From Schistosoma haematobium (lineage: Eukaryota > Platyhelminthes > Trematoda > Strigeidida > Schistosomatidae): 64,000 nt of DNA. Under the pieces are notes generated by a model. It searched no databases. It saw only the letters and a list, made by a program, of their open reading frames with translations, and was not told the DNA's origin. This document shows positions 8,259-60,400 of this stretch, one piece after another. The position numbers and the translations under genes are program-made. The stretch covers positions 86,686,569 through 86,750,568 of the forward strand of contig NC_067195.1 in the NCBI RefSeq assembly GCF_000699445.3. Direction: 5' to 3'. Each line of letters opens with the position of its first letter. The stretch's first letter is position 1.

Positions 8259-8423
8259 CTAGACAAAAGTTGTACTAAAATACTAGTTTACATTATTGGT
8301 TGATATGTTTCTTAAAATAACTGGAGGGGCCTTCAGTAATGCGCGTATAGCGCGCACAACATGAAGCATACTGTTGACCTTCAAATGAAACTAGGCGCCT
8401 TCGTTTTCAAATGGATCTGGACG

Positions 8424-9390
8424 ACTAGAAGCTTTCGCTTAACGGGCTTCCGCATCTAGTAGCGGTGAATCACCGATGCCTTCAGTTTAGCACCAAGGCG
8501 AATTAACGATAAAAGACGAAGAAGAAAAAAACTTGGTAAGTTATGGTAAAATTTTGTCCTTAGTTCATAGAGAAATATATCAAGTTTTCTTCAAAAGGAC
8601 TCCTGGAAAGTCACTTCGACTACCTCAGACGTTAGCGATTTCCGGAACTTGACTTCTCTCGAGTACTAAAGTGCGAGCCTACAGTCTGTTGGTGTATGTT
8701 GTATTCCCAGTTCCGGGGTGTTACTCCTAGGCTTTATGTTGCCACTAAGCTTAAGTAGGTGTTTAAGAGGATGGTCAGAAGTATTTAGGATTATCTACGT
8801 CATTGAAAGGTCACCTCTAAGACGCCCGTTCTCTAACGGGTAAAGGTCCAGTGGTTAGAGCTGCTCTTCATGAGACTTGAATTTCAGTCACTGGACCGGT
8901 TTCGTGGCTCGTCGTTTGAATACGTTCCATTGTGTTCTTATCCTGTTCAGATGAGGGAGGGAACACTATGTTTCCATAGACGGGGACAACTTAAACTACT
9001 GAAGGTTGTGTGGGAAATTCTTCCATCGAACTGACCGAAAATGCGCTTCAACGTTACCAACTCAAGATTTGCTCGGAAGGCATTTTTGTCGCCGGACCAG
9101 GAGAAGTGTCTTTTTTAGATGCTGCAGTTTCCGGTATACCGAGTCAGAGCTTAGGTTCACTTCGGAAAGTCTTGTGGAGTTAAGGATGAGGCTTTCATCT
9201 ACGACGTTGATGTGAGTCCATCGAAATGTCCGAGTGTTGTCCTGTCACTGTCGTTGTTGTTTGAGCCACTAAGACCTGGCAGTTAGGAAACTCTAGTTTC
9301 GGCTTGTTGAAGCGAGGCTGCGTGAAAGAATAAGGTTTTAAGATTGAAGACAAATTTATCGATAAGCTTTATCTGGTAGTGAAGCCTGTC
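8424..9390 (+). repeat. Unclassified dispersed repeat, copy 1
   Basis: This stretch is similar, in the same orientation, to 39360-40010. Shared blocks include 'gaagctttcgc', 'gtgaatcaccgat', 'ttagcgaactccgg'-like wording, 'cagaagtatttaggatt' and 'aattcttccatcg'. Its last 150 bases ('gattgaagacaaat...atcgat') match 42770-42890. No protein motif was recognised on either strand. It could be the untranslated part of a retroelement. Confidence 0.6.
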
Positions 9391-11776: not shown

Positions 11777-12139
11777 TGTAGTGACTCACATTTATCACGA
11801 GAACACGACTGGTTTAATAAAAACAATTATTATTATTATTATAACCAACTGTACCAGTGTTTGTTTTAATGTGCTTTTGTTTAACTGTGCTAATTATAGC
11901 CATTTTGTGCTTCCATTACCTTCCATCATTGTTCCGCGGTTTTTGGTACTGTTCGCGCGTACTCCTGTCTTCTGCTTCCACTTGTACCACTTCTTGGCAC
12001 GATCTCGGTATTCGTTCAATACCACGAGATCGCCAACGAAATAAATCTGGTTACACTCGATCCTCGCCTTCTGATTTATCTGGCACGTGTTTCTGGGTAG
12101 CGGTGTTCACAGTTAATCTCAACTCGACGCCACGCTACA
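11777..12139 (+). repeat. 5' LTR of the gypsy element
   Basis: The LTR starts TGTAGTGACTC and ends ACGCTACA. It matches 16929-17291 over 363 bp with no difference that I could see. Two open frames inside the LTR (11673-12044 and 11857-12147) recur at the 3' LTR and are LTR sequence, not genes. Confidence 0.92.
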
Positions 12140-12160
12140 ATTGGTGATCCCAAAGTTTGG
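12140..12160 (+). promoter_or_regulatory. Putative primer-binding site
   Basis: Immediately after the LTR, two bases (AT) precede TGGTGATCCC. The position and TGG start fit a tRNA 3'-end primer site. The tRNA identity (Trp) is inferred from the clade. Confidence 0.55.
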
Positions 12161-12278
12161 AACACGCCTCAACCCCGGGTCAAATCTTCTAAAGAAGCCA
12201 ATTTGGTGAGTCTATTATTTATCTATCCACGTCTGTCGTATATTTTCATATTAATTTTTAATATATAATATACACGAC

Positions 12279-13144
12279 ATGACGGATAGCGAGAAGAATA
12301 CTATTAATGTTATAGACTCAGACGTACAGGCCATTCATTTTCGACCTGTATCATTTATCCCCCACGACCCTGAGGTCTGGTTTGCTGCTTTAGAGTCTCA
12401 GTTCGAGACTCGTCGCATCACGAGCCAAAGGCAAAAATACGCCTACGCTCTCGAATCATTACCCGGGGACCATTTAGTAGCTGTTCGTGAGGTCGTCCTC
12501 AATTCTAACGTGCCTGATGTTTATGACCGCCTCAAGGAGGCAATTCTCCGACATTTCCTCCCATCGAGGGAGGAACGATTGAGGACCCTGTTAGCACGTC
12601 ACCCCTTGGGTGATGCTAAACCAAGCCATCACCTCACGCGCCTGCAATCTCTTGCAGGACCAACAGCATCTGACTCGGAGATAGTTAAGGAATTATGGCT
12701 CGAGTCACTACCAGCTCATATCCAACCTACTGTGACGGCACTGCTCGAGGACTCACCGCTTAACCAGGTAGCCCTCATAGCAGACAAAATTTTGGCGAGG
12801 ACTAGTAATAGAGACACCTATGTAGTTGCTTCGACGGCACGTCCTAAAGTAGACATGGACGCCGGTCATTCCTCAGCTCATGGTGACAGGGCCGGGTGTA
12901 TTCACACACGTCTTAGTTTTCGAGACCGTTGTAACGTACCCCAACCCTACGTCCCCCGAGCTCGCTCAAGTTCTCGCAAACCCGTCACCACTCGCCCAAA
13001 AAGGGATCTTCCAGGCCACGCCGAAAGGCGGCTACGGAAGCGAGTGACAGTTGGTGCTGGTTCCATAGGTCCTTCGGGTCCGGCGCCCGCCGTTGTCGAG
13101 CACCATGCTCATACAAGGCGGTAAACGCCAGCGCCGGCGAGTAA
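12279..13144 (+). pseudogene. gag: gag of the gypsy element, frameshifted before the zinc finger
   Basis: The frame from the ATG at 12279 runs to 13124 and encodes a capsid-like region (FIPHDPEVWFAALESQFETR, then LARHPLGDAKPSH). The expected nucleocapsid zinc finger lies in another frame at 13055-13108, with spacing C-x2-H-x9-C-x3-C, ending at a TAA at 13142-13144. This CHCC pattern is diagnostic of the CsRn1/Boudicca clade. The two frames meet at an A-run, 12998-13002, the likely site of a one-base change. The pol frame overlaps the end of gag from about 13093. Confidence 0.82.
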
Positions 13145-16100
13145 AAGCGGCCGTACTCGCCGGCCCTTCACCCCAGGTTGGTCGCCTATTCTATGTGCAC
13201 GATTACCGCACGAACGCTAGGTTCCTAGTAGACACTGGGGCCCAAGTTTCTGTCGTACCACGAGGTAGCAGCAAGTCACAAACCACAGTGCTTCGACTAC
13301 GCGCTGCGAATGGCTCAGTCATTCCTACCTACGGTACACGACAACTCGCGGTCAACCTGGGCAACCGACGACGGTATCTGTGGACGTTCATCATTGCTGA
13401 TGTTCCCACAGCCATACTAGGTATCGATTTTCTACAGCACTATGAATTGCTTGTCGATTCACGTAGGCTGCAGCTAATCGGTACTTCGTCGAACAGCAAA
13501 TTCATGGGCTGTAAAGCCCACATGAACGCGTACCGAATCCTGGGCACTTTTTATTCGCGTGACGATAAATTCCACGCTTTATTCGAGAAATTCCCCGTAA
13601 TCACTAAACCACTCGAGGAGCTTCCATCGGTGACCAATCGTGTGGTACACCACATAGTCACCCGCGGACCGCCAGTCACAGCACGACCTCGCCGACTGGC
13701 ACCGGACAAATTAGCTTTTGCTAAGCGTGAGTTTGACAATTTACTAGCTACTGGTATTATTCGTCCTTCTCACAGTCCATGGGCCTCTCCTCTACACATG
13801 GTGCGCAAAAAAGATGGGGTTAGTTAGAGACCATGCGGCGACTACCGAGCTCTAAACGTAGTTACGCGCTTTGATAGCTACCCCATCCCCCACATACACG
13901 ACATCATCGCATCGCTCAAGGGCACGACTATCTTTTCTAAGATCGATCTGGTACGAGCATATCATCAGATCCCAGTCGCTCTTGAAGATATCGAAAATAC
14001 CGCTATCACGACTCCTTTCGGTTTGTTTGAGTTCCTACGAATGCCATTTGGATTACGGAATGCTGCTCAAACTTTTCAAAGGTTTATCGATAGCATTGTA
14101 CGAGACCTCGATTTTGTTCACGTCTATATTGATGACCTGCTAATCGCATCATCAAACGTAGATGAACATTATCAACATCTTACGCTATTATTCCAACGCC
14201 TTTCGGATAATGGAATAGTAGTTAACCCAGACAAATGCGAGTTAGGTAAACGAGAAATAATATTTCTGGGTCATGTTATCAAGCAAGAGGGTATTCTTCC
14301 TTGTGAGGACAAAGTGCAAGCAATAAAGGAGTACAACGAGCCGTCCTCACTCAAGGGACTGAAAGCTTTTCTCGGTTTGGTTAACTTCTACCGTCGTTTC
14401 ATCCCACACGCGGCAGAACGGTTACGACCACTAACCGACTTATTACGCGGCAACCCACGCAGATTGGAAATGAACGATTCTGCACGTACTGCATTCACTG
14501 AAATCAAAACGGCTCTTGCGCAAGCCACTCTTCTCGCCCATCCCGATCCATCAGCCACGCTTAGTATAGCGGTTGATGCATCCGATGTTGTTATAGGAGC
14601 AGTTATGCAACAAAACATCTCCGGTAGTTGGCAACCTCTCGAGTTTTTCTCACGACGCCTTACTACCACGGAGACGAGATATAGCGCTTTTGGTCGCGAG
14701 CTGCTAGCAGCCTACTGCGCCATCAAACATTTTCGGCACGCAGTAGAAGGACGTCAATTCATTTTATTTACCGACCATAAGCCCTTAACGTATGCTTTGC
14801 ATACCAAGTCTGACCGCTACTCACCACGAGAGTGCAGACATTTGGACTATATCTCCCAGTTCACGACAGAACTTTGTCACATCCAAGGCAAGTCGAACTG
14901 TGTTGCCGATGCTCTATCACGAATCCAAATGAATGCAGTTACCCTGCCGGTGCTCGATCTTCCCGCTATGGCCGCTGCCCAAGCAAACGATCCCAGTTGT
15001 ACAAAAGCATCACACTCTACGTCCCTTCAGTATCAGGAAGTACCTCTAGCCACGACTTCTGGCACCATTCTATGTGATACTTCTACCGGTCTTCCCCGAC
15101 CCATCGTACCCTCTGCTTATCGCCGTCTCGCATTCGATGCCCTGAATGGATTATCTCACCCAGGTATCGCAGCTACATTACGCCTCATCACTGCACGATA
15201 CGTCTGGCCGTCCATGAATAAAGATGTTCGTATGTGGGCGAAGCAATACTTACAATGTCAACGATCAGAAGTGCACAGGCACGTAGCCGCCCCTCTCGGT
15301 ACATTCGCTACGCCTGATGCTCGCTTCGATCACGTTCACTTAGACATTGTAGGACCACTGCCACCATCGCACGGGTATGATCACATACTCACGTGCATCG
15401 ACCGCTTCACCAGATGGCCCGAAGCTATACCCATCACGTCTATCACGGCGGAGACAGTTGCTCACCGCTTCGTAGAACGATGGATAGCTTTATACGGTTG
15501 TCCCTCGACTGTCACGACTGACCGAGGACAACAATTCGAGTCCGCACTATTCTCCTCACTTACTCGGCTGCTTGGTACGGAACGCATACGCACTACCGCC
15601 TACCATCCAGCTTCAAATGGTTTAGTTGAAAGGTTTCACCGTCAACTTAAAAGTGCTCTTCGGGCACACGAAAACGACGACTGGTGCGAAACCTTACCGC
15701 TCGTTCTACTAGGTATTCGAACGAGCTTGAAGGCAGATATCCAATGTTCCGCCCTTGAACTTGTATACGGCACGACATTGCGTCTGCCCGGAGAATTCTT
15801 CACACCACGGAGCAGACCTAATTTCGCTAAATCAGACTACGTCCATCGACTGTCTGCATTTATGCGAACGCTGCCTCCGGTGTCAACTCGAATACAACAT
15901 CGACAGGTCGCTCTCCCTCGAGAGTTATCCACCTGTTCACATGTTTTCATACGAGTAGATTCGGTACGCAAACCTTTGCAACAACCTTACGAAGGCCCTT
16001 TTCGCGTGATCGCTCGTCACGAAAAGACCTTCAAGGTTGATCGACACGGCCGCGTCGAGATCGTCAGCATTGATCGTCTCAAACCAGCACACGTCGATGA

Positions 16101-16368
16101 CAGTACCCTATCTGATAACCTGAGATTCAATGCTAGACCAAGCAAACCTACTAGCGGGATCCTCAAACCATCTTCAGGTCCCACGCTAGATACACCTGAG
16201 ACCTCACTCTCACGTCCCAGTCAACAGCACGCGTCATCTGCACCGTCTACGGACGAGACGACAGTCTCACGTCCAGATCAGCAGACCACGCCGCCCTTGA
16301 CTTCGGATGAGATTGCAGGCTCACGTTCCGGTCGCCGAGCACGTTTACCCGTACGCTTCCTCGACTAG
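13093..16368 (+). pseudogene. pol: pol of the gypsy element (PR-RT-RNaseH-IN) with one nonsense codon
   Basis: One frame runs across the region, interrupted only by TAG at 13825-13827, just before the RPCGDYR motif of RT. Protease has DTGA at 13231-13242. RT has [30 protein letters not shown] and YIDD at 14125-14136. RNase H has SIAVDASD and [10 protein letters not shown]. Integrase has a zinc-binding region followed by the catalytic acidic residues in [17 protein letters not shown] and [10 protein letters not shown]. The first Cys of the integrase zinc finger is replaced by Tyr at 15247-15249, while the second Cys (15256-15258) is present. The copy therefore cannot supply complete enzymes without suppression. 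Confidence 0.93.
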
Positions 16369-16928
16369 TCGCACAGTCGACAACCGATACGGTGTAGGAA
16401 TACTCCTATGCTACTTGCATGCTACACTCTTCTCTTTTTTTGATTTTCTTTTTGTTTCCTGAGCCCTCGGCCTCGACCATCTCCGTTTGGTTCCGTCGAC
16501 TTCAGTCAACTTTGGCGAAAGCTGGATTGGCCACCCACGCTCTTGTCAACGCACTCAGTCGATATATTGGTTTCGAATGCTTGGCATACGCTTGGTCTCG
16601 AACTTGGTCGTTATGGTCGCTTCTGGTCTTTTGGCTCAACGTGGTTTCGTCCTTCGTCTGCAGCGCTTCTGGTCCGCATTCCCTACGAACGCCATCTTCA
16701 GATTCTGGATACAAACCACTCTGGTGTAGCATGCCAACTCAAACAATAAATACAACACATCGCTCCTGGTACCGTTCTCCGAAAACGACCTTCGTTGGCA
16801 ACTCGACGATCAACGATCGCTTTTCTGTTCGCCAATTCTTCCGTCCTACAATCGCTCGTCAGCCGATCAGTCCCACGATTCAAACCGCTATTTATCGAAA
16901 GTGTAAACCCTTTCTAGCGGGGGGCTCC
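16369..16928 (+). other. 3' untranslated region / ORF3-like stretch of the gypsy element
   Basis: This stretch lies between the pol stop and the 3' LTR. An open frame from 16419 runs through it into the LTR. It includes a hydrophobic, Trp-rich segment (WSLWSLLVFWLNVVSSFVC). No envelope or known domain is recognised. It ends with a G-rich tract that would serve as the polypurine tract. Confidence 0.5.
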
Positions 16929-17291
16929 TGTAGTGACTCACATTTATCACGAGAACACGACTGGTTTAATAAAAACAATTATTATTATTATTATAACCAA
17001 CTGTACCAGTGTTTGTTTTAATGTGCTTTTGTTTAACTGTGCTAATTATAGCCATTTTGTGCTTCCATTACCTTCCATCATTGTTCCGCGGTTTTTGGTA
17101 CTGTTCGCGCGTACTCCTGTCTTCTGCTTCCACTTGTACCACTTCTTGGCACGATCTCGGTATTCGTTCAATACCACGAGATCGCCAACGAAATAAATCT
17201 GGTTACACTCGATCCTCGCCTTCTGATTTATCTGGCACGTGTTTCTGGGTAGCGGTGTTCACAGTTAATCTCAACTCGACGCCACGCTACA
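16929..17291 (+). repeat. 3' LTR of the gypsy element
   Basis: The second LTR starts TGTAGTGACTC and ends ACGCTACA, followed by the target duplication ATAG. Confidence 0.92.
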
Positions 17292-17295
17292 ATAG

Positions 17296-33200: not shown

Positions 33201-35558
33201 TTACCTACGCCTGTCACCCCTCATGAAGGAGCATAGGCCACCGATCAGCATTCTCCATCAAACTCTGTTTTAGACAATTCTTTCCAGTTACTATTTATCC
33301 TTTTGATGTCTGCTTCCGATTCTTGACTCAGTGTATTCTTTGCCATTCCTCTTTTCAGTTTCCTTTCAGGATTCCAAGTTAGGGCTCATCTCTTGATGCA
33401 GTTTAGTGATTTCCACAATGCATGTTCTATCCACCTCCACCATCTTTCCCTAGTTTCCTCTTCAGCTGGGAGTTGGTATATTCTCTCACACAGTTGGCTA
33501 CTGCTGATGGTGCCCGGTCAACAATCGACATTGAGTATCTTGTGAAGACAATTGTTTATAAATGCCTGTGCCTCTTTGATGATGGTTGTAGTAGTTCTCC
33601 AATTTTCAGCTCCCTACAGTAGAATCGTCCTAATGTTCGCATTGAACAATGGGACTTTGATATTGGTTGATGGCTATTTCTAGTTCCGTATGTTTTTCAA
33701 CTGTAGGAATGCTGCCCTTATATTGTCAATCCTCGCCTTTACGTCTGCATCGGGTCTTCATTGTTCATCGATGATACTGTCCAGGTGCGTGAAAATTTCA
33801 ACATCCTGCAGAGTTTCCTGATTAGGTGTGATTGGGTCGCTATTCTTCGTATTATATTTCAGGATCTTGGTTTTCCCCTTGTGTGTGTTGAGGCCCATTG
33901 ATCCAAAGTGTTGTGACTTTATGTCCGGCTAGTTATCACGTGGTTTATCCACCTTTCAAAATACGACTTATAAAATCTTAGCACTGTGCCAAACCAATGA
34001 TCTTCGACCGGTATGAGCAGCCTAGCGTCCTTATTGGTCCTATGTTCGCCTAACCCGTCCACTTGAGTCCAGAACACAAATACCAGCTTCCAATATGCGA
34101 ATCGAATCATTTATTTCAGACATACTGGGTTTATATATCAACCAAACAAACCGCAACACATTATAAAATAGGAAATAACATTCATACACAATAAAGCCAA
34201 AAAGTGGCTGTGAACGTGGGAGGCAGTAGTCAGTAAACTGAACATAGCTTAAGAACAGTAAATCGTACAATAATAAAATATAAATCAAAATAAAGCTTAT
34301 GGCAGGGGGAATATATACATAATCTAGTTGCTGAATATTTATACCATAAGAATATTTAAGTAATATTAGTTCATTAATATAAACCCAGTATATTTAAAAT
34401 ATTTTTGATTGAGATCATGAAGTGATTGATGTTAGACCCTCACAATTGAAAACCTGGAAGCACTGGACGGCCGTTTCGTCCTATTGTGGGACTCCTCAGC
34501 AGTGCGCATATGCTTTGCATAGTGAGAGCTGGTATTGGTGTTCTGGATTCAAGTGGACGGGTTAAGCGAACATAAGACCAATGAGACGCTAGGCTGCTCA
34601 TACCGGTCGAAGGTCATTGGTTTGGCACAGTGCTAAGATTTTACGTGATTTCTAGGGGCCCATAAAGACACAACTATAACATCAAAACGTAAAAAAATAC
34701 AACAATTATGTATCAAACTAAATCTTACAAGTTTCAGTATGCAAAAATACAATAGTTTTAGTATTTAATGTTTGTATAACAAAAATATAAACATTAACTT
34801 CATATAGAACAGTTCCATAGGTTTAACTTTACCGAATACGTATTTCAACATAGCAGTTTTGTCGTATTGTAATGAAAAGTTCAAAATGTTACTGATAAAC
34901 TTACTACTTACAAAAAGACTTACTGATTTTGGTATTAGTTGATATTCTTAACTGAAGAAAAAAACTTTCTGTAAGCTCATAGAAGTCGTTTGATTTGGTG
35001 GGAGGCGGACATAGACTAACTTGGTCTTTTTTCTTCTTAAACTGTATAGCAATAATGCATTACTTAAATTAGTATTTTGTTTACACAATTCCTCCACATG
35101 TTCTTCTTTTTCAAAAAAAAACAAACAAAATAATAGAAATTCAAGTTACACATGAAACATTGAAGTTTTTCACTGATTTAGTTGCTAATCTTGGTCCAAA
35201 ATTACGTACAGCTACTTTATTATCAAAAGTTAGACGAGTTAGACATGGACCAATCACAGCGGAAAATTCATTACTTATGAAACATTTACATAATATACCT
35301 ATTGAATTTTATCATGAATTTATTCAATGTATCAATGATATATTAATACAATATAAAAAACATGATAAAAATTTATCTATACCATTAGAAATGGATTTTA
35401 TAGAAGATTTGAACTTATTAAAATGTTTAATGAATCGTACACAAGGTAAATATGGTTATCATGTATTTGAGAATTTGTTTCAATGTAATCAATTATATTC
35501 AATAGGATTTGAATGTACTAAACAATATAAATATCGTATGATTCCAATAAATTCTTAA
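30073..35558 (+). CDS. TRUB2: TruB-family pseudouridine synthase, TRUB2-like, six exons
   Basis: Exons: 30073-30205, 30249-30368, 30413-30493 (or from 30437), 30532-30681, 32421-32774, 35137-35558 (TAA). All junctions are GT-AG and keep frame, giving 419 aa (411 with the alternative exon 3); human TRUB2 is about 330 aa. The N-terminus [18 protein letters not shown] fits the TruB 'vYKPxG' motif. Other matches are [21 protein letters not shown] and a C-terminal [12 protein letters not shown]...[14 protein letters not shown] block typical of the TRUB2 subfamily. The family modifies uridines, and TRUB2 acts in mitochondria. The catalytic Asp motif is not convincing (nearest SDFMSGV). Extra length sits in exon 5. 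Three introns are 38-68 nt; introns 4 and 5 are 1.7 and 2.4 kb and hold repeats. The ATG directly follows a splice-acceptor-like ttctag. Confidence 0.85.
30249..30368 (+). CDS. TRUB2: TRUB2 exon 2
   Basis: It joins as [16 protein letters not shown] and ends DIVDSDL in phase 1 at donor gtactt. Confidence 0.75.
30413..30493 (+). CDS. TRUB2: TRUB2 exon 3
   Basis: It encodes [18 protein letters not shown] and then SDFMSGV. An alternative acceptor, tttcttccag, would start it at 30437; both keep frame. The donor is gtgagt. Confidence 0.65.
30532..30681 (+). CDS. TRUB2: TRUB2 exon 4
   Basis: It follows a 38-nt intron ending ttaatag. It encodes [16 protein letters not shown] and [14 protein letters not shown]. 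The donor is gtgagt, phase 1. Confidence 0.8.
31165..31215 (+). repeat. RTE (SR3-like) tail fragment in TRUB2 intron 4
   Basis: The sequence 'gcatatatgtgcctggtcct' followed by tgactgactga repeats the family tail seen at 21735-21780. Confidence 0.6.
32421..32774 (+). CDS. TRUB2: TRUB2 exon 5
   Basis: The acceptor is ttttgtatcag. It begins [20 protein letters not shown], matching the family's helix after the catalytic domain start, and ends [19 protein letters not shown]. The donor is gtatgt. The charged middle (WEEERRRM) is extra relative to the human protein. Confidence 0.82.
33195..33905 (-). repeat. RTE (SR2-like) 3' fragment in TRUB2 intron 5
   Basis: The fragment is a diverged homologue of 22600-23310, with the landmark 'gagcataggccaccgatcag' at the tail and 'caggatcttggttttcc' at the other end. 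It holds only decayed RT C-terminal sequence. Confidence 0.8.
33909..34378 (+). repeat. Diverged LTR related to the 542-bp LTRs at 40389/42075
   Basis: It begins TGTTGTGACTTTATGTCC and follows the 542-bp LTR through 'ccttattggtcctatgt', 'cacttgagtccagaacac' and 'aaaaagtggctgtgaa'. The last 60 bases of the LTR are missing. It lies in TRUB2 intron 5. Confidence 0.8.
34445..34528 (-). repeat. Smalpha-type repeat fragment carrying a hammerhead motif
   Basis: The block 'gaaaacctggaagcactgg' through 'cagcagtgcgcat' is shared with the repeats at 56410-56870 and 57330-57810. Only the ribozyme-bearing end of the repeat is present here. Confidence 0.75.
34460..34505 (-). ncRNA. Hammerhead ribozyme, type I layout, intact core
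   Basis: On the minus strand the parts in order are: stem I strand GCACTG; core CTGAGGA (fits C-U-G-A-N-G-A); stem II GTCC/GGAC closed by CACAATA; core GAAA; minimal stem III AC-GGCC-GT; cleavage-site C; stem I strand CAGTGC. All invariant core bases are present and stem I pairs over 6 bp. Smalpha repeats of schistosomes are known to carry hammerheads with a very short stem III. Activity here is inferred, not shown. Confidence 0.8.
34529..34648 (-). repeat. Inverted piece of the 33909 LTR
   Basis: This block is the reverse complement of about 33971-34088 ('taaaatcttagcactgtgcc' to 'aataccagct'), giving inverted arms of about 117 bp around the Smalpha fragment. Confidence 0.78.
35137..35558 (+). 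CDS. TRUB2: TRUB2 exon 6 (terminal)
   Basis: The acceptor is aataatag. It encodes [16 protein letters not shown], then [18 protein letters not shown], the most TRUB2-like block, and ends at TAA 35556-35558. The codons are very AT-rich (many AAT/TTA). Confidence 0.85.
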
Positions 35559-40010: not shown

Positions 40011-40388
40011 GGTACTAGCACCTATAGATCCTTTCCAACTTGGAATGCATCTGAAAGGTGGCTATCAAAGTTGTGGTTGTAGTCTGCAACATATCTCTGT
40101 CCGTTGTTATCTTCCCAACCTTGAAGTCAACTCAGATCCTCTTGAAGTTCCATCTTATCATTTTGGCTGTAAGCTACACGTCAGTGAAAATTACTGTCAG
40201 AATACAGTTGCTGAGGAGGGTCTCTTATATAAATCAAGGAGAGAATAAATCCTAGTTCTAAGCCCTAAGGGCCCCTACTAGGATATTCTGTGGCCCAAAG
40301 AAATGTTACGATTACCCTGACTCTAAAATCTCGATCGTTTAGTTATGAAGTAAGCCAGTCTCTTGACACCTAATGGTTTAAACCTCCT

Positions 40389-40930
40389 TGTTATGACCTT
40401 GGATGTCTGACTTTTCGATCACACGACTTATCTACCAATCCGGATACGACTTATACGAATCTTCACACTAGGCCAACCAATGACGTTTAACCGGTGTGGG
40501 CAGTTTAGTGTCCTTATTGGTCCTATGTCCTACGAGCCCTTCCACTTGAGTCCAGAACAAGATACCAGCTTCCGAATCAGGGCAGATCAGACCAGAATCA
40601 GAGCAGATCGTTTATTTCAGGCATACTTAGTTTATATATCAATCACACAGACCGCAACGTACCATAAAATAGGAAATAATATTTGTACACAAATAAGCCC
40701 AAAAAGTGGCTGTGAATGTGGGAGGCAGTAGTTAATAAACTGAACATAACTTAAGAACCGTAAATCGTACAATAATAAGTTATAGGTCAAAATAAAGCTT
40801 ATAATAAGAGGAATATAAATATATGTAATGTAATTGTTGAATAATTATACAATAAGAATATTTATAGAATATTAGTCCATTAATAGTCCTCGGGAGTTAC
40901 CTGTAATTTAATCTCCACTCGGACATAACA
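40389..40930 (-). repeat. 3' LTR of the compact element
   Basis: It is identical by eye with 42075-42616. The 83-codon frame within it recurs in the other LTR and is not a gene. Confidence 0.92.
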
Positions 40931-41002
40931 CCTCCCCCCTTTTTTTTTTTTGAAAAACCCAACTTTAGATTCTGATTAAAAAAAAAAGAATCATATGTGA
41001 CT

Positions 41003-41890
41003 TTAAATTCCTCGACATTCTCCTCCTCCTCGAAATAATGTTGGGTCCTTATGGCTCCAAATTACAACTAGTAGGACTTTATTTAAACCATGTTTCTTGT
41101 ATTGACTGGAGAATCCACTAAAAATGACTAGATGATGATGAACGACCATCGACTTGAGGTCATTACTTCCAAATTCATTATGAATCTCGTTAGTAGATAA
41201 TGAGTCATTAAGAAAGTCAACGCCTAACAAAATTAAATTAGATTTTTGACCATCATTTGAAACAGCCGACATATTTTCTTCATTGTTATAAGAAGTTTCA
41301 TTAAAATTATATGTATTATTCTGAGAACCAATATTTGGTACATTGTCATTAGAAATCGGATAAGTCGACTCAATATCAATTTCTGTCTTCCGGTGATTTC
41401 GAGTAACATCTGGTACAATTGGGTTCATCGTGTTGCTCCAGTTATTTTCTGAATACGAGTCCCCACAGCTTTCTCGACTAATAGCACGTGGATCACAATT
41501 TTGTTCGAGCTGGAGTTTATTTTCAGAGCTAGACAGAACCAGTAGCGTTTCATTCAATTCTGGACTCTGGGCTTCATCTACAGGATCTGGTTCTTGATCA
41601 TCTGGTATTGTCACAACTTCATGAGCATTTAGAACAGTATTTTCTTGCTGTGAGCCGGATACGTTACAAATATTACGTTCTGATTCAGGTATAAGGGGAT
41701 GTGAATCCTCCACAGGATATGCTTCTGAATTGTCCATTGCTGCACCATTATCTGCATGATATATAGATTTCTTATTTTCTGCTTGAATGCAAAGTCTGCC
41801 CAAAACTGTTATAAATAGCTCTTGTTGCAAGGCAAACATCTTCTGCTGGTGCTGTAATATTAACCGCAACTGTTCGAAAGAAATCGACAT
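41003..41890 (-). CDS. Gag-like ORF of the compact LTR element
   Basis: The 295-codon ORF starts MSISFEQLRLILQHQQKMFA, a Gln-rich helical N-terminus typical of gag proteins of LTR retrotransposons. The acidic, Asn/Ser-rich middle has no zinc finger. The end (WSHKDPTLFRGGGECRGI) looks like read-through of the region normally near the 3' end of a complete element, so an internal deletion probably fused gag to the 3' end. ATG 41890 is the first in frame after the primer-site region. The frame is fully open, consistent with youth. Its role, if any, in mobilisation is unknown. Confidence 0.65.
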   Translation of the reverse strand: MSISFEQLRLILQHQQKMFALQQELFITVLGRLCIQAENKKSIYHADNGAAMDNSEAYPVEDSHPLIPESERNICNVSGSQQENTVLNAHEVVTIPDDQEPDPVDEAQSPELNETLLVLSSSENKLQLEQNCDPRAISRESCGDSYSENNWSNTMNPIVPDVTRNHRKTEIDIESTYPISNDNVPNIGSQNNTYNFNETSYNNEENMSAVSNDGQKSNLILLGVDFLNDSLSTNEIHNEFGSNDLKSMVVHHHLVIFSGFSSQYKKHGLNKVLLVVIWSHKDPTLFRGGGECRGI

Positions 41891-41993
41891 TTTTTTTTTT
41901 TGCCAATAATATTAGCTCCAAAAATCACCGGCAATTATACAGCTAATTTATTTCCAAAATCTGAGTCACCACTTGTATTATTATTATTTCTTT

Positions 41994-42074
41994 GTTGCCA
42001 AAATCCCCGTCGCCAGTTGTTATGACCTTGCGTCTCCCAATTATTTTGTTTTTGCCAAAATCCCCGTCGCCAAT
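41994..42074 (-). repeat. Duplicated LTR/primer-site junction
   Basis: The string 'ttgccaaaatccccgtcgcca' plus the first bases of the LTR (ttgttatgacctt) occurs twice, at about 41994-42030 and 42053-42087, about 60 bases apart. The inner copy ends about 13 bases into the LTR. Confidence 0.8.
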
Positions 42075-42616
42075 TGTTATGACCTTGGATGTCTGACTTT
42101 TCGATCACACGACTTATCTACCAATCCGGATACGACTTATACGAATCTTCACACTAGGCCAACCAATGACGTTTAACCGGTGTGGGCAGTTTAGTGTCCT
42201 TATTGGTCCTATGTCCTACGAGCCCTTCCACTTGAGTCCAGAACAAGATACCAGCTTCCGAATCAGGGCAGATCAGACCAGAATCAGAGCAGATCGTTTA
42301 TTTCAGGCATACTTAGTTTATATATCAATCACACAGACCGCAACGTACCATAAAATAGGAAATAATATTTGTACACAAATAAGCCCAAAAAGTGGCTGTG
42401 AATGTGGGAGGCAGTAGTTAATAAACTGAACATAACTTAAGAACCGTAAATCGTACAATAATAAGTTATAGGTCAAAATAAAGCTTATAATAAGAGGAAT
42501 ATAAATATATGTAATGTAATTGTTGAATAATTATACAATAAGAATATTTATAGAATATTAGTCCATTAATAGTCCTCGGGAGTTACCTGTAATTTAATCT
42601 CCACTCGGACATAACA
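42075..42616 (-). repeat. 5' LTR of the compact element
   Basis: It begins (minus strand) TGTTATGTCC and ends GGTCATAACA. It is followed on the plus strand by the target duplication CTCCT. Confidence 0.92.
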
Positions 42617-42769
42617 CTCCTGATGAAACATATGTAGTTGACCCTATCAATAACTTCTGAGAAGTAAATGCGAATAATATCAACTCTCCTTAAGTGACTA
42701 AAGATTATTGTCCATCTGTCCACCGCAGTCAGCAGGTTGGTTGAAATGCTTAAAAACACTGTTCTGCCA

Positions 42770-48009: not shown

Positions 48010-51000
48010 GTACTGTCTCATATTTTAGACCGATTTCAACTAATTTACTAGGGTTTCTAAACCAGGGACCTCGTGATTAATATTCCTATCGTTTTTTTAT
48101 TTTTCTGGTATGCAATAAGTTATTGGAAAGCTTATTTCATAGCTCATCTTTGTGTTGAGCAATTTAATAACACGTACTATATATCATGCATGTATAGTGA
48201 ATCTAGGTGTTTTATCTTCTCCCTAATTTTGGTGTCCACTCTTCGAACATCGACAATGTCTTAAAAATGTGCAATCATTCGTGTATACTCGGTTCATTTG
48301 TATGGCTTCGAGTGCTTAGTATACACTAATTCTTACAACGTCTAACATCGAAATACATAATTTCAAATCTAAAGGCTCAATAACGATTTCTGACAGCCAT
48401 AAGCAATTTAGGTTCGTTAAAGATTTTGCAGTGTAATACAAAATGGGACTTTGGTGCCATGATTTATGATGTATGTGAAAGCAAACGTACTCAGCACATA
48501 CTTATCTAGCATAAGTTCCTACATAAGTTATTTTCCTGGGTTAGTTTTTTCACACTGCTGAAAGGACTGGATAGTCCGCACTAACACTTGCTCTAAAAGT
48601 TTTACAGTGGACTTTTAATAGATTTTGTTGATAACAGTGCTTAGACTTATGGATTACAATATTGTGGCGGGGGGGGTATATCAATTGTTTGTCTTAAGAT
48701 TATTGGCATAGTGTAGCATTGTAGATCCAATGATTCGTGGAATTTCATTGAAATGATTGATAAACGAGTCCAGTGCTGATCCTTATGGTACTCCACTTGG
48801 TCGATTAACGTAGCTGATTTAACAATTACATGTTTGTGTATTCGGGTTTAGGAAACTTTATGTAGGGGCCCATTATATTTTTACCTGGCTTTTAAAACTA
48901 GTAAGCAGAACATGTTTTGAAAAACCGACTTAATGTTTCCAAATCGAGTGCCCAAATCACTGAGCCGCTGCCTCTGTAAAATGCTTAAACCATTGAGACA
49001 GCTTCTACTGAAACAGTTTTTATTCCTACAAACCTACTAAAAATACATCCATGTTATTTCTTTGAGTAGTGAATTATGGTCAGGACGTCCTGCTTTTGGC
49101 CACTTAGTAGTAGTAGTCTGGAGAGGAGCTAGGTCTAGTCAAACCAACGATTGGTTCATACGCCATTTGTTCCCTCAGGATACTGGGGCCCATGTGCACC
49201 AATGGTTTGGAATCAGGGTTTTCCAACTCCCCTAGGTGGACTCTCCATGTCCACCAACCTGGTTAAAGTGCCGGACATTCGCTTTTCGTCCTCTCATTTT
49301 TGTAAACAACACCCCCGCCACGAGAAGGCAGTGAGTAGGACTTCCCTGTCAGAGGCTATTTACGCGTGGCCATGTGAGAGCACTTCGAGAGGGTGAGCGG
49401 ACTCCCCCACTCTCGGCCATACCAGACCATTTGGGGGCCCTATCATTGTAGTGTCAATGTTTTCTTTTCTTTTCTTAGTTCACTGGGAGAGATTTCAATG
49501 ACACGTTTTAATATTTAGATTGCTTTGCGGTTATATCCGTGTAATTTATCTGCAATATTTCTCTTTTTCGTTTTAGAAATCCGGTGGTTTGGACACTGGC
49601 ACAGAAGCTGTTATGAGTTTGACGGTCGTCAATCCTGGAGACGGTGGTTTTATTGCTAGTTTGGAAGGTCAGAAGTGTGTAGAGTACATTGTACAATCAA
49701 AAGTGAATCTTGTTACCTCACTGCCAAAGTTATTAAATGTTGAAAAGCCTGATTCTACTACAGATGTCTTAGAGGAAACTAACTTACGTCACAGATCAGG
49801 TACGTTTTGTCATGTTCTTTTCTGGTTATTAGGTCAATCAGTCATCCACAACGTAGGACCAGGCACATACATGCATCGGTTCAAGTTGCCATACCACATT
49901 AGCATAGCAAGATGAACACCGGACTCATAGAAGCAGTTAAGTCAATGGTGGTAATATATAAAAGAAAGATTGCAGATAAGGATATAGTACAGGAAGAAAG
50001 AATTAGTTCGTAGGAAGAAAGAAATGAGGCGATTTTAATCTCATAGTTTGAGGGAAGACAAAGAGTGTATACACCGACATCATTGTGATCGATTCTGAGC
50101 CATGTCACCAAGAGTCTCCAACCATTGGTTACGATAGTCACATGCACCCCAACCAAGTATTCTGCATCTACCAACATTGCTCAGACCAGAAGTTAGTGAC
50201 TGCAATGAGTGATGCCACGTTTTGGTTTGGCCACCCCTGACTTTCTTCCAACCATCCCCAACACTAGTCAGCATTGCTCATCGTGGTAATCGGTGTTCAG
50301 GAATATGTAACACGTGGCCCAACCACCTGAGTCGATATAGATTCGCAACCTCATCAACTGATGTACCATTATTCACTAATACCCTGTATCTAACCTCACT
50401 ATTACTTACCTGGTTATATATAATGATCAGAAGTAGTCGGATTATTGTACTAGCTAGGAACCAAAATAGTGCAATTTACAGCAAGTAGAACTAAATGAAC
50501 GTATTTTCTTTGGAATTCGTAATAAGCGGGTAATCAAGTACAAAAGAATCATTAGTTCTTACAAATACTGCATAATCCCAGCAGATGTGAGCAATATTTC
50601 TAAGACATCTGTGATCAAATACTAGTAACTCACGAGTATCTTCTACTCTCAATGGCCACGTTTCGCAGCCGTAAAGTAGAACAGAACGAACTGCAGCGCA
50701 GTATACTCGTTCTTTAAATGATAGACGGATATCTCGCCTTCGCCATAGGTGACGTAAGTTGGCAAAAGCCAAGCGAGCTTTTCGAATCCGTGCAGAGATT
50801 TCGTCAGACATCAACCGATTAAGGCTGATTAGACTTCCAAGATAAGTGAAGTTGTCAACGCGTTCGACTACTTCACTCCTTATCCTTAGTTCAGGTGTTG
50901 ACGCAGACCAGTCCTGAAGCAACAACTTGCATTTAGTGGGGGGGAGAAGCGCATCCCAAACATCCTGCCATTGTTGCCGCGTGCTAATAAAAGACTGGAT

Positions 51001-54485: not shown

Positions 54486-57400
54486 CTTCCTTTCTTTGTA
54501 GTCACTGATTGTATATCCAGATGTTAGTGGTGGCTTGTCAACTGGTGTTTGCAGTATGGCTTTTTCACATGCATATGCATCTAAACAGGATGATTCTACT
54601 TCATATCCCCTATTGGCTACAATATGCGATAGACCTGATTGGAGTACATTAAGAGTATGGTGTACTAATGTTAATCTCCCATCAAAATCACTCCTATTTT
54701 TAAATGATATTAAATCAATGCATTCAACACTGAATTCTCGTCAACAACTGGTCAAATTAAAAACTAACACTTCAAAAAGAAATCCTAGTAATGAAAGAGG
54801 TATTCGAATGAAAACTTTCCTATCAAATTCAGACAATGATAATTCATTTAAAATTCAAGATGATATTTTATTCAGTCAATCAATGGAAAAATATCCATAT
54901 GCAATTGCTTCTTGCAGTTCTTTGTCATCTTATGGAACTACACCGCCACCTTCACCGAATCTTGTATCTACATCGAATAAAGTAGTAAGTAGTGATGATA
55001 ACAAATCTGTGTTATTTTATTTTTCATTTTACTTTAATTGATCATATGTAATATAATTTGAACTGTAGTTCAAACTTGTAGTCAGATCATTAAAAATTTT
55101 GTGCTTAGGTAACTAAGTAACAATATTAATTAGCCACTGACATAAGAACCTATTGCATAACTTGACTTTATTTATTTTAGGCCTCGGTTAATTTCATATG
55201 TCTTCTATGGTAATCCCGTTGTCAAGTCAGATTAACTTGACGGCCTGATATTAAAAGTCAGATACTCAATATTTTGGTAATAGATATGTTTCAAATTGAT
55301 TCAATAGACCACAGAGATTGTAGAAAGTATGAAATGTGTCTGATGTGGATCGGTATAGCGGTCAGTCTTTATGTTTTATGGATTGATTAAAGTAGTAATC
55401 AATTGTAGTATAAATTATTGAATGTGCTCATATGTTACAAGTGGTTGATGGATACAGCCGACAAATTGTAACACACAAAAATGGATAAAAGTCAATAGTT
55501 AATTATGGGAATAAGTATAAAATAAATAATAGGACTAAACTTGACATGTTTAGTAGTCAAATGTGTGTTAGGCCGTATACTTGCTTGAACTACTCTAGGT
55601 GTATATAGTAAAGTGTTTTAGGTGAACAATATGAGGCTGTTACAAACTACATTGAAACACCAAACCACAGAATCGAGTCCCATTTGTCAATCAGTGAACG
55701 GATAGTTAAGGAATATAGTTGATTCTTACGTAATAGGTGGTAATTCATTGTTTCAGCCCAGTTGTCTACTATGACTTTGTCTTGGTGATTTATTAGGTGA
55801 GGTTTGTAACAGATAATTTAAGCAATTTATACTGGAACATAGTAATAATTATCCGAAATGCAGTTCCAGGGGGTACCTTCTACTTTGCAATTACTTTGAT
55901 GTGTGGTAGTGACTTGATGGTTAGAGCACTCGGTTACCAACCGTTAGGTTTCAGGTTATAATTAAGTTCTACTTCAGGTTGAACAACCCGGTATTATCCC
56001 ATCATAAAGGTGTATTTCCAGGATTACTACGTTAATGTATAATCTAATTTCAAATTTCTCAAAAATGCATATTCTAGTATCTTAACCCATACTTCTAGAA
56101 TACGATTACCTTATAGTTCATAGCATATGCATGTATAACGACCGTACTTATCACTAAATTATAAACATGTTGCTTCATTTTGACAATTAATTATGCCAAA
56201 ACAGTGGTTTTATGTTGCTTTCTTACTCTTTACTGTACCATTCATATAACCAGTAATCATAGATATCCGATTTCTGTGGTAATATTATTGATAAGATGAC
56301 CTCAAATTATCTAATTTTACAAATAATTGATATTTCTAATGTGTGAGGAAATCCTCAGTAAATTTTTTTTTATCGGAAGGGGTTTTGTGGAGTTTAGTAA
56401 TTTCAATAGTTGAAATCATGAGTCAATTGAAGCTAGCCCACCATGGAAAACCTGGAAGCACTGAACGGCTGTTTCGTCGTAGTATGGGACTTCTCACCAG
56501 TGCGTATCCACGATCCCGCCCCCTGCGAGATTCGAACTCAGGACCTACCAGTCTCGCGCGCGAGCGCTTGACCGTTAGACCACTGAACCGGCATCCAACG
56601 GTGTTAATGTCTAACTTCAACCAATTCACGAAATTGCGCCACCGTACACCATTGTCTTCAGTGGGCTGATATCTCACAACAGACCTGGTTGAACTCCACT
56701 GGTCACGGCTGACAGGTCCTGGGTTCGAATCTCGCTGGGGGCAGGATCATGGATGCGCACTGCTGAGGAGTCCCATACTGGGACGAAACGGCCGTCCAGT
56801 GGTCCTAGGTCTCCCATGGTGGTCTAGCTTCAATTGACTCATGATTTCAACTATTGAAATTTGTTTCTGTTTAGACTTCTACACGGACGCTTTTCTCATC
56901 TGAATGGTCGTTATCGCTTTGATTTTGCCAATTTTATATTTCTTAAAATCGTCCTTTTAGCTATACAAACACTTGTTTTATTACAATTTCAATTTGTTGA
57001 ATATTAAACTTTTTTCTCAGTTTTTAACTCTCTTCTCTTTCATTCACGTGTAAATTCTTGTTGAAGTTGTTATGTGTCAATCTTGCGGTCTATCTGGTTA
57101 GCGTAAATCTCGTTTTGTATTAGAGAAATCTTAAAATCATTCAGAATTCAGAATCACCTCAAAGTATTCCAAAATATAACGATTATTTGGTGAACTATTT
57201 AAACAACAGACGCTATTGTACAATCAAATTTTGTTTTTACTGTTTTTTGTAAGTTTAGTCATCATTAGAATATTATCAGAATTGAGATTTGTGGAAATTG
57301 TAGTAATTTTAGTAGTTGATCTTAGTCGATCTAAGCTAGACCACTATTTAAAACCTGTAGGCACTGGACGGCTGTTTTGTCCTAGTATGGGACTCCGTAG

Positions 57401-60400
57401 CAGTGTGAGTCCGCGATCCCTCACTCGGGACACGAACCCAGTGTATTCGGTCTCGAGTGTGAACACCTAACCTCGTGATCACTGAGCCGGCATCCAACGG
57501 TGATAATGCCTAACTTCAATCAATTCATGATCTTGAGCAACCCTTCATCTATTGTCTGGAGTGGATAACTGTCTCCACCCGTTACCGATTGGACTCCACT
57601 GGTCACGGCTTCTCATTAGAACTCCAAAATGAAGGGTTGTGCAAGATCATGGATCAATTGAAATTAGGCATTGACACCGTTCCATATAGACTCAGTAGTC
57701 TAGAGGTTAAGCGTTTGTGTGCGGGGTCGTGGGTGCGCATTACTAAGGAGTTCCATACTAGGACAAAACAGCCGTCCAGTGCCTCCAGGTGGTCTAGCTT
57801 AGATCGACTGATGAATTCAAATATTAAAATTATTGGAATAATTAAATAATTTGAGTAAATATATGCATAGGATTTTTGTGAACGATTTTCATTTATAACC
57901 ATTGACATGTTATAGTGATCTTATCATTATTATATAATCTAATAGGCATCTTTGTAGTTATTTTCTACTTTACTAAACTGCTAAGTGTTTTTTATCATTT
58001 TGTAAATTGTAGACATCAGAACGTTCTTCGGATCGTTCTAATTATCGCTTCAGACATTGTCAGTTTATGAAATATTCTCTCAAATCTCCAATTTCATCGA
58101 ATCAATCTTTATCTTCCTCTGAAGGTTTAAAGACCAGTGAAATTTATACTGTTGAATCTATGCTTGTTACTACGATTCAGCCTTTGTGTGCAAATCGTCG
58201 GAGTTTTAGTCGTTTAGTTGTATGGTCAGTACCGCATCCTTCTGAGGCGGCAACCTTTGAATCGTTATCGTCAAATAATATAAAAATGCATCAACCAATT
58301 CAACTCAACACTTTTGCAGAAATTACTCTTCCTCAGGGACATTTACCTGCTTGTCTAGCTGTTCATCCAAGTCGGTCACGAGGCTTAATTGGTGTGGGCA
58401 CTATGGAAGGACGTGTTGATGTGTATTTGTAAGTTTACTACTTAAATTTTATTATGTTGGTTATATTTACAGTTTATGTAAATCAATAAACTTATGCGAG
58501 TTCCGTACAATACTAATGACTGATATCTTTCATTGGGCCAGTTAGAATTGATGTAACAACACTCCATCAATAATTTTATTGTTTGGAGTATTGTTTGAAA
58601 TATTTGAAAAAAAAAACGAAACTTAACTATCATAATATCAGTAATTCCTTACTGAAGTTTTATTCTAATGATGAATTTGCCACAGTCTATACAAACAACA
58701 ACTGATGGCACATTCAAATGGCTGGCAGTGTCACCTATTTTTCCTCCCTTTCTTGAGAAAATGTTTCCTTCGTGAACAGATTCTACACTTTCCTTTTTCA
58801 TGGAATGCTCATCGAGTTTATATCATAAGGTTTCCTCCTACATTGGTTATAGATGATGGTATTATAACAACATGAATATATTTCATTGATCTACTAGTTT
58901 CTCGAGTTCACCTTCTATAAGATCGGTTCATAAAACTAACTATTCAAGAAGAACGACAATCTTCTATGGATACTAATTCTATGTTGTCTAATAACTAAGT
59001 TTCATACACATAGTTGTTCCCCTTATCATCATAATGATAACAAGGACAAACATTCTATTTCGTTTGGTTCTCATCAACTGCTTATAACCTGTGATATTTA
59101 AAAGCCTAACTACAAAATGAATTTAAATTACTTACATATCAGCATAGTTATAGCAAGGATATAAACAAATTTAATAGACTGAATAAAATTGTTAATATTT
59201 ACCTTGTGTAAAAGAACATTCTACAACATTGATTGTAACAAGAGTTTAAAGGGTTTAGAAACAAGTGGTTAGTTACCTAATGAATAAACTCTGATAATAA
59301 GTAAGAATAAAATGAGTAAAGTTCATTTGATTAGAATAAGATTACTGATCTAGAAGACAATCGAAATGAACTAAGAAACGTAATGATGTTATTAATTCTT
59401 GCTCTCTTTAATATAATAACTAGGTGTTCCGTTATTATCATCCATCGTCCATATCAGGATTAACATTGATAATCTTCAATGTAGGCATCTTGATTAGGAA
59501 TTCAATAATCCACTTAAAAGGTTAATTGTAAGACCGATATAACAAGTAATAAATTATAATTTTGTGAATATCTTTATTTCTATTATGAAAGGTACTCGTT
59601 TTTCATATATGAACTACTCTTTTGCAGAGAAGTAAAACTGTTATAGTCTATAAAAGCAGAGCCACTAAATGCCCTGGTACGGCCGATAGTGGGGAAAGTC
59701 AGCTCTCCCTCTCGAAATCCTCTCACATGGTCACATGCATACAATCACTGCCTTCTCGCGGCAAGGGTGTTTTTTATGAAATTGAGAGGACGAAAAGCGA
59801 ATATCCTGTAGTTTAACTCGGATTTGTGGGTACGGTGGATCCACTTAGGAAAGTTAAAAACCCTGATTCCAAGCCAATAGAGCACATGGATTTCAGGATC
59901 CTAAGAAAACAATTGGCGTATGAACCTATTGTTGATTACCGGTTACCATGAAAGTGCATCTCCTTACGATGCTCCACTGCCTTGTGGATCAGACCTTCAG
60001 GTCGAAGGCTCCGGGTGTGGCCGCCTAAGTAAATCACCTGCTTCGGTCTGGGCACGCGAGCAGTATCACAGCCCTCACACATATCAAATGAGAATAATGT
60101 GGCGCTTATGTATTTAGTGCCCCCTTGTACCAATATATGTGTTAAAATAAAATAAATAACTACTGGTAACTTTCGAGTATCCTCTACTGTTAATGGTCAC
60201 GTTTCACAGCCGTAAAGTAGAACAGAAAGAACTGCTGCGTAGTATACTTGTCCTTTTATTGATAGACGGATATCACGCCTTCGACATAGGTGACATAAAT
60301 TGGCAAAAGCCAAACGAGCTTTTCGAATCCGTGCAGAGATTTCGTCAGACATCAACCGATTACGGCTGATTAGACTTCCGAGATAAGTGAAGCTTTCGAC

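Follow-up and report, generated by a model that had tools for sequence, protein, structure and literature searches.

Structure of the insertion

At 40389-42616 of the window, which is the whole stretch of 64,000 nucleotides of Schistosoma haematobium DNA analysed here, there is an LTR retrotransposon of 2,228 bp on the minus strand (40384-42621 including the target site duplications, TSDs; Table 1). Its two direct LTRs have TG...CA ends and are 100% alike over 542 bp (0/542 differences), the same 5 bp flank both outer ends, and a primer binding site (PBS) and a polypurine tract (PPT) adjoin the LTRs on the inside. The open reading frame runs on the minus strand and therefore the LTR with the higher coordinates is the 5' LTR. 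The element encodes no protease, RT/RNase H or integrase. The matching LTRs, the CTCCT duplication, the purine tract, the primer site and the single 295-codon frame had all been described in an initial annotation, which considered the element non-autonomous and proposed a base-by-base alignment of the LTRs, and all of this is borne out. The leader also has a tandem repeat of the PBS, which was absent from that annotation.

Table 1. Features of the element and their positions in the window
Feature	Position	Strand	Remarks
TSD CTCCT, 5'-LTR side	42617..42621	.	flank comparison
5' LTR, 542 bp, TGTTATG...CATAACA	42075..42616	-	TATATAA 42318-42324, AATAAA 42297-42302
57-nt cassette, from PBS1 through second LTR-end copy CAAGGTCATAACA (42018-42030)	42018..42074	-	
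PBS1, TGGCGACGGGGATTTTGG	42055..42072	-	12/13 to tRNA-Ser(GCT) complement; begins 2 nt inward of 5' LTR
PBS2, 18 nt identical to PBS1, 57 bp further inward	41998..42015	-	12/13 to tRNA-Ser(GCT) complement
Degenerate third PBS-like copy	41954..41971	-	9/13 to tRNA-Ser(GCT) complement
295-codon ORF	41003..41890	-	open frame, moderate purifying selection
Gag-derived N-terminus, residues 1-49	41744..41890	-	helix 5-38 predicted, low confidence
Tail, residues 144-290, terminating DPTLFRGGG	41021..41461	-	common to gag+CCHC+tail family
Polypurine tract adjoining 3' LTR	40931..40951	-	
3' LTR, 542 bp, equal to 5' LTR	40389..40930	-	LTR comparison
TSD CTCCT, 3'-LTR side	40384..40388	.	flank comparison

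The reference for the primer sites was the complement of the human tRNA-Ser(GCT) 3' end (first 13 bases; PMC9072684), which may differ from the schistosome tRNA; PBS1 and PBS2 are the only sites with at least 11/13 matches to it on both strands of the 64-kb window. The TATATAA and AATAAA motifs of the LTR are both retained in a diverged LTR copy at 33909-34379.

Regarding the age of the insertion, the 0/542 LTR differences and the rate estimated for S. mansoni (8.1e-9 per bp per generation, with 0.2 years per generation; PMC4754680) give a 95% upper bound of ~340,000 generations, i.e. ~68,000 years, which supports the recent insertion suggested by the initial annotation. LTR conversion could mimic such a youth.

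Alternative LTR ends

The ends of the LTRs were examined in 31 loci, namely the window, L012-L027 and L051-L064, leaving out L009-L011, a part of the C8 array without its right end, and L001-L008, which are shorter stretches of places otherwise covered. The loci were taken from the top matches and therefore young copies are over-represented among them. In each locus we asked whether the 5 bases to the left of the LTR recur immediately behind the 542-type end or behind any additional ATAACA-type end within 180 bases. A perfect TSD was found at exactly one candidate end in 30 of the 31 loci; when the left flanks were swapped between loci as a control, 4 of 930 comparisons matched. The 30 loci fell into the following end classes:

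i) LTRs of 542 bp. This class comprised 18 loci, four of them solo LTRs (L019, L020, L022 and L025).

ii) LTRs longer by 53 bp, found in 2 loci.

iii) LTRs longer by 57 bp. We found 9 cases, among them the solo LTRs L021 and L024.

iv) LTRs longer by 110 bp, with a single case, the solo LTR L026.

In the remaining locus, L018, which was cut from an array, no single end was fixed by a TSD. Use of the third PBS-like copy was not seen among the 30 resolved loci.

The 57-nt cassette is leader in the window copy and part of the LTR in sister copies. The standard logic of strand transfer predicts this pattern: a primer at PBS2 would have the cassette copied into the strong-stop DNA, and therefore into both LTRs, while one at PBS1 would keep it out of the LTRs, in the leader. 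The element RNA would carry two cassettes in tandem, each made of an LTR end and, behind it, a tRNA-Ser PBS. Priming at PBS1, the putative primer site of the window copy given that its TSD lies at the 542-bp end, would yield 542-bp LTRs and a cassette that stays in the leader; priming at PBS2, as we propose for the sister copies ending at +53 or +57, would bring the cassette into U5 and lengthen the LTRs by 53 or 57 bp. Every alternative end reads CATAACA, so integrase would be able to use each of them.

Two loci, L061 (542) and L064 (+57), belong to different end classes and show 4 differences in 1,659 aligned bases (3 gap columns). This is the sole very close pair of this kind that we found, the next closest pair with differing ends having 26 base differences. 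From the alternative ends marked by TSDs, together with this near-identical pair of unlike class, LTR length therefore appears to change with the priming PBS and seems to vary between successive new copies. We consider it probable that LTR length is a reversible, non-mutational state, in which each round of reverse transcription picks 542, +53-57 or +110 bp and the cassette that was not used persists in the leader or in U5, and that the pol-less element meanwhile keeps a selected Gag-tail protein in several Schistosoma species.

The encoded protein

No Pfam family matches the 295-residue ORF at E <= 1, and neither a capsid nor a CCHC zinc knuckle was found in the ORF. Its homologues amount to 39 proteins including the query, and all those with a legible source name come from Schistosoma; the ones covering at least 90% of the ORF are 56-86% identical to it and belong to several Schistosoma species. 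In the S. spindalis homologue P0021 the frame continues past a PPT-like stretch into what is apparently the same LTR start. AlphaFold2 predicts a disordered chain (mean pLDDT 28.9), except for the helix listed in Table 1.

The two ends of the protein have different relatives. For residues 1-49 the relative is the Gag start of L068, a 4.9-kb relative described below; this alignment scores 96, which none of 1,000 shuffles reached (shuffle maximum 57). Beyond this point no alignment with the L068 Gag exceeded chance, as 650 of 1,000 shuffles reached the score of residues 50-120 and 862 of 1,000 that of residues 120-295. The tail, on the other hand, has a profile match (probability 99.9) to proteins whose N-terminus is gag-like and which contain a CCHC knuckle, and profile comparison with autonomous gag-pol gave no match (0.04). 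Outside its own family the N-terminus had no match in the protein database (candidates of 0.55-1.75 times the query length), and the scan of IMG/VR gave 0 confirmed cases.

The initial annotation had called the ORF gag-like, which is right for residues 1-49 but not for the ORF as a whole, given the missing capsid and CCHC knuckle, the disordered model and a profile match to the tail alone. It had also seen in the ORF end what looks like a deletion fusion of gag to the 3' region. The ORF is indeed a fusion of 49 Gag residues, but the other part is the tail common to another non-autonomous family, and the fusion is present family-wide, so a recent, copy-specific deletion was rejected. Judging from the 56-86% identity of the homologues, the fusion is old and common to several Schistosoma species. 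The product is probably an accessory protein, which may dock to the Gag of the helper or to the element RNA.

Relatives and candidate helpers

A 34-base pattern formed by the LTR end and the PBS, CAAGGTCATAACANNTGGCGACGNGGATTTTGGC, has 494 exact matches in the genome (201 forward and 293 reverse), and its reversed control has 0. Among about 100 matches listed, a spacing of ~4.9 kb occurs, for example, in a group of nine at C1:49414806-49454055 and in the pair C1:25572355/25577262. In the 531 bases read of the latter relative, the U5 end and the PBS are the same as in the element, the leader is 91.8% identical to that of the element (LEAD 45-184), and the Gag start extends past the part common with the element ORF. 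An apparent cassette of the 53-nt type is cut by the edge of the stretch read, and the autonomous candidate seems to carry the LTR-end and PBS cassette as well. On these 531 bases, which cover the U5 end, PBS, leader and Gag start, the 4.9-kb relative is the best helper candidate, in line with the need for an autonomous relative stated in the initial annotation. The element would then be mobilised in trans by the autonomous family that has these four parts in common with it. Altogether, we put at roughly three in four the probability that this is a young non-autonomous Ty3/gypsy-type LTR element moved in trans, with a two-PBS RNA, a primer-dependent LTR length and an ORF made of a Gag start and a tail.

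Other autonomous elements were also considered. One family, with a 1,484-codon open frame in 5 of the places listed, has a different LTR body, and what it has in common with the element is limited to TGTTATG at the LTR start, the final 16 nt of U5 and the beginning of the PBS. The LTR ends and the PBS start are shared with gag-PR-IN elements too, and the placement of the pol-less element in the Ty3/gypsy lineage is indirect, through this likeness and through the leader and Gag start of the 4.9-kb relative. P0100-type gypsy elements were rejected as helper, L028-L035 having no match to the element LTR within 1.5 kb of pol, and a further gypsy pol, L065, had no match to the element LTR either.

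The second non-autonomous family, which has gag, CCHC and the same tail, was found in L036-L043, at C7:17630133-17663306 and at C2:22618298-22628979, and it is also arrayed. Its LTRs of ~150-166 bp match those of the P0100-type autonomous element, which on this likeness is the likely helper of that family. In L050 (C4:38544200-38554000, reverse complement 4342-8568), identical LTRs of ~553 bp enclose gag, zinc knuckle, protease and integrase, with a Ser/Asn/Asp-rich spacer in place of RT/RNase H. Many relatives of L050 have 1,004-codon open frames and recur ~3.67 kb apart.

Copies in the genome

The search over the 400-Mb assembly, in which the window occupies C1:86686569-86750568, gave 133 scored ORF copies out of 2,475 first-look candidates. 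The LTR search, which the initial annotation had recommended, recovered both window LTRs in place together with many relatives; the element is multicopy. Head-to-tail clusters, 10 in number and with 2-31 copies each, contain 117 of the 133 scored copies, most of them spaced 1.6-1.8 kb, and the other 16 are single places. A collapsed assembly of a full-length element was rejected in view of these single places and of the fetched copies, which have the same structure. The window copy is itself a single insertion, and its ORF score equals that of 6 of the 7 units of the array at C1:79.99 Mb.

Regarding the arrays, a 30-kb stretch of the C8 array contains 15 units with 0-5 pairwise base differences, all of which fall in the final columns of the unit; gaps at homopolymers come in addition. 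The two-unit tandem L012 lies between unique flanks and is bounded by a 5-bp TSD, CATTC, which would fit the expansion of a single insertion by unequal LTR exchange. The family array at C5:42247947-42319521 has mixed spacings of ~1.77 and 6.28 kb, such as a repeated higher-order unit would give.

Alternative explanations

LTR length could instead be a fixed trait of subfamilies, mixed occasionally when co-packaged RNAs recombine or the template is switched between them, with no choice of primer site in each round. On a tree of the 23 two-LTR copies the end class is somewhat clustered, with at least 5 changes of class against a mean of 7.3 after shuffling (30 of 500 shuffles were as low), as would be expected of a subfamily trait; the starred branches, for which bootstrap is not settled, force just 2 class changes. 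Furthermore, nine 542-class copies of the 23 are without an intact second PBS, seven because the second cassette is missing and two (L053 and L055) because PBS2 is altered within it. However, five other 542-class copies of the 23, including the window, keep both PBSs, the pair L061/L064 is unlike in class at 4 differences in 1,659 bases, and LTR-LTR conversion would not be expected to shift the outer integration end together with a perfect TSD. We therefore consider a fixed trait improbable and prefer a switch of LTR length with the priming site.

As for the ORF, it might be a passive remnant in an element for which cis signals alone count, as in a TRIM. The disordered model of the ORF would agree with this, as would the between-species substitutions, which are near neutral by BLOSUM score (20 sequences; p about 0.01-0.18, varying with kappa), so that this test was not decisive and was set aside as proof of selection. 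Among the copies in the genome the median NG86 omega is 0.44 (172 of 276 pairs, dS > 0.05), but these pairwise ratios overlap the biased neutral range, since simulation without constraint gave medians of 0.59-0.83 with wide ranges. Against a remnant, a codon model (22 distinct rows, 288 codons, copies treated without recombination) gave omega 0.53 and kappa 3.0, and fixing omega at 1 costs 7.5 log units (2dlnL 14.9, p about 1.1e-4; the best of five kappa values on the same tree, where a finer kappa grid would soften p slightly). In addition, the frame stayed open in 0/1,000 neutral simulations to 58% identity with kappa 2 and in 2/1,000 with kappa 4, a comparison to be read with the caveat that databases favour open frames. 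We read the frame as being under moderate purifying selection, and a passive remnant as unlikely. Doubtful too, but somewhat less so, is that the arrays arose in the assembly from extrachromosomal LTR circles and are not chromosomal DNA: the small contig C44 alone holds 31 scored copies and the 15 C8 units are nearly identical, but several arrays lie within chromosome-size contigs and the L012 tandem has its own unique flanks and outer TSD.

Relation to known elements

For the Nonaut elements of S. mansoni, the primary paper is reportedly DeMarco 2005. A review (PMC8293314) names Nonaut-1.1, -3, -4.1, -5 and -6.1, which are likewise non-autonomous LTR elements of a schistosome, compared here by name alone; for schistosomes the open-licence literature gave us the Nonaut names only. 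Animal TRIMs, as described for ta-TRIM of taeniids (PMC4558846) and biv-TRIM of bivalves (PMC6934838), are also small and pol-less, with TSDs, solo LTRs and tandem copies; a helper for ta-TRIM was proposed from its PBS and ends (PMC4558846), and the biv-TRIM tandems of a clam reach TDR58_I57 (PMC6934838). Our family differs from them in its ORF of ~295 codons, which is under selection, and in alternative LTR ends that go with repeated PBSs. At 2,228 bp and with a selected ORF, the element is not a TRIM in the sense of a short LTR element without coding capacity. Cassandra of plants (PMC7215508) likewise forms arrays of LTR-internal units with common LTRs, but it has a 5S sequence in the LTR and is described there without gag, pol and env.

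The kind of element and the arrays were thus already known, head-to-tail arrays of LTR elements having been published for plants (PMC7215508), taeniids (PMC4558846) and bivalves (PMC6934838). No S. haematobium paper on such arrays was found by title in the open-licence literature, nor, judging by titles and abstracts there, any relevant precedent for duplicated or alternative PBSs in retrotransposons. What is new, as far as this search goes, is the switching LTR end. In annotation, the length of the LTR and the point where it gives way to the leader serve as fixed family traits; if in a natural family this boundary moves with the primer site, it would record at which site reverse transcription began, and the TSDs would make the record readable. 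The element also raises the question of the role of a selected protein without capsid or enzymes in a dependent retroelement, in a genome with long arrays.

Other features of the window and the genome

Another young LTR element lies at 11777-17293 of the window, on the plus strand, with the exact repeat pair 11777-12141/16929-17293 (LTR about 363 bp), ATAG on both sides, and DUF7041 gag-like, protease and RT-RNaseH-integrase frames. A diverged repeat at 8428-9369 was rejected as the empty site of our element, its flanks aligning partly and the junction not. Old relatives of the element LTR, 76-77% identical, are present at 33906-34379 and 34527-34640, the second inverted, and between them there is a hammerhead ribozyme match (34460-34505, minus strand); a second such match lies at 56757-56802. 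Two matches to the mir-3492 family (50776-50853 and 60317-60394) are inside a direct repeat. Finally, L045 and L046 each have, near 1501-1551, a stretch of ~30 nt that resembles the tRNA-Ser(GCT) complement behind an LTR-like end TAACA; the likeness extends well past 18 nt, and the stretch is perhaps a copied primer tRNA.
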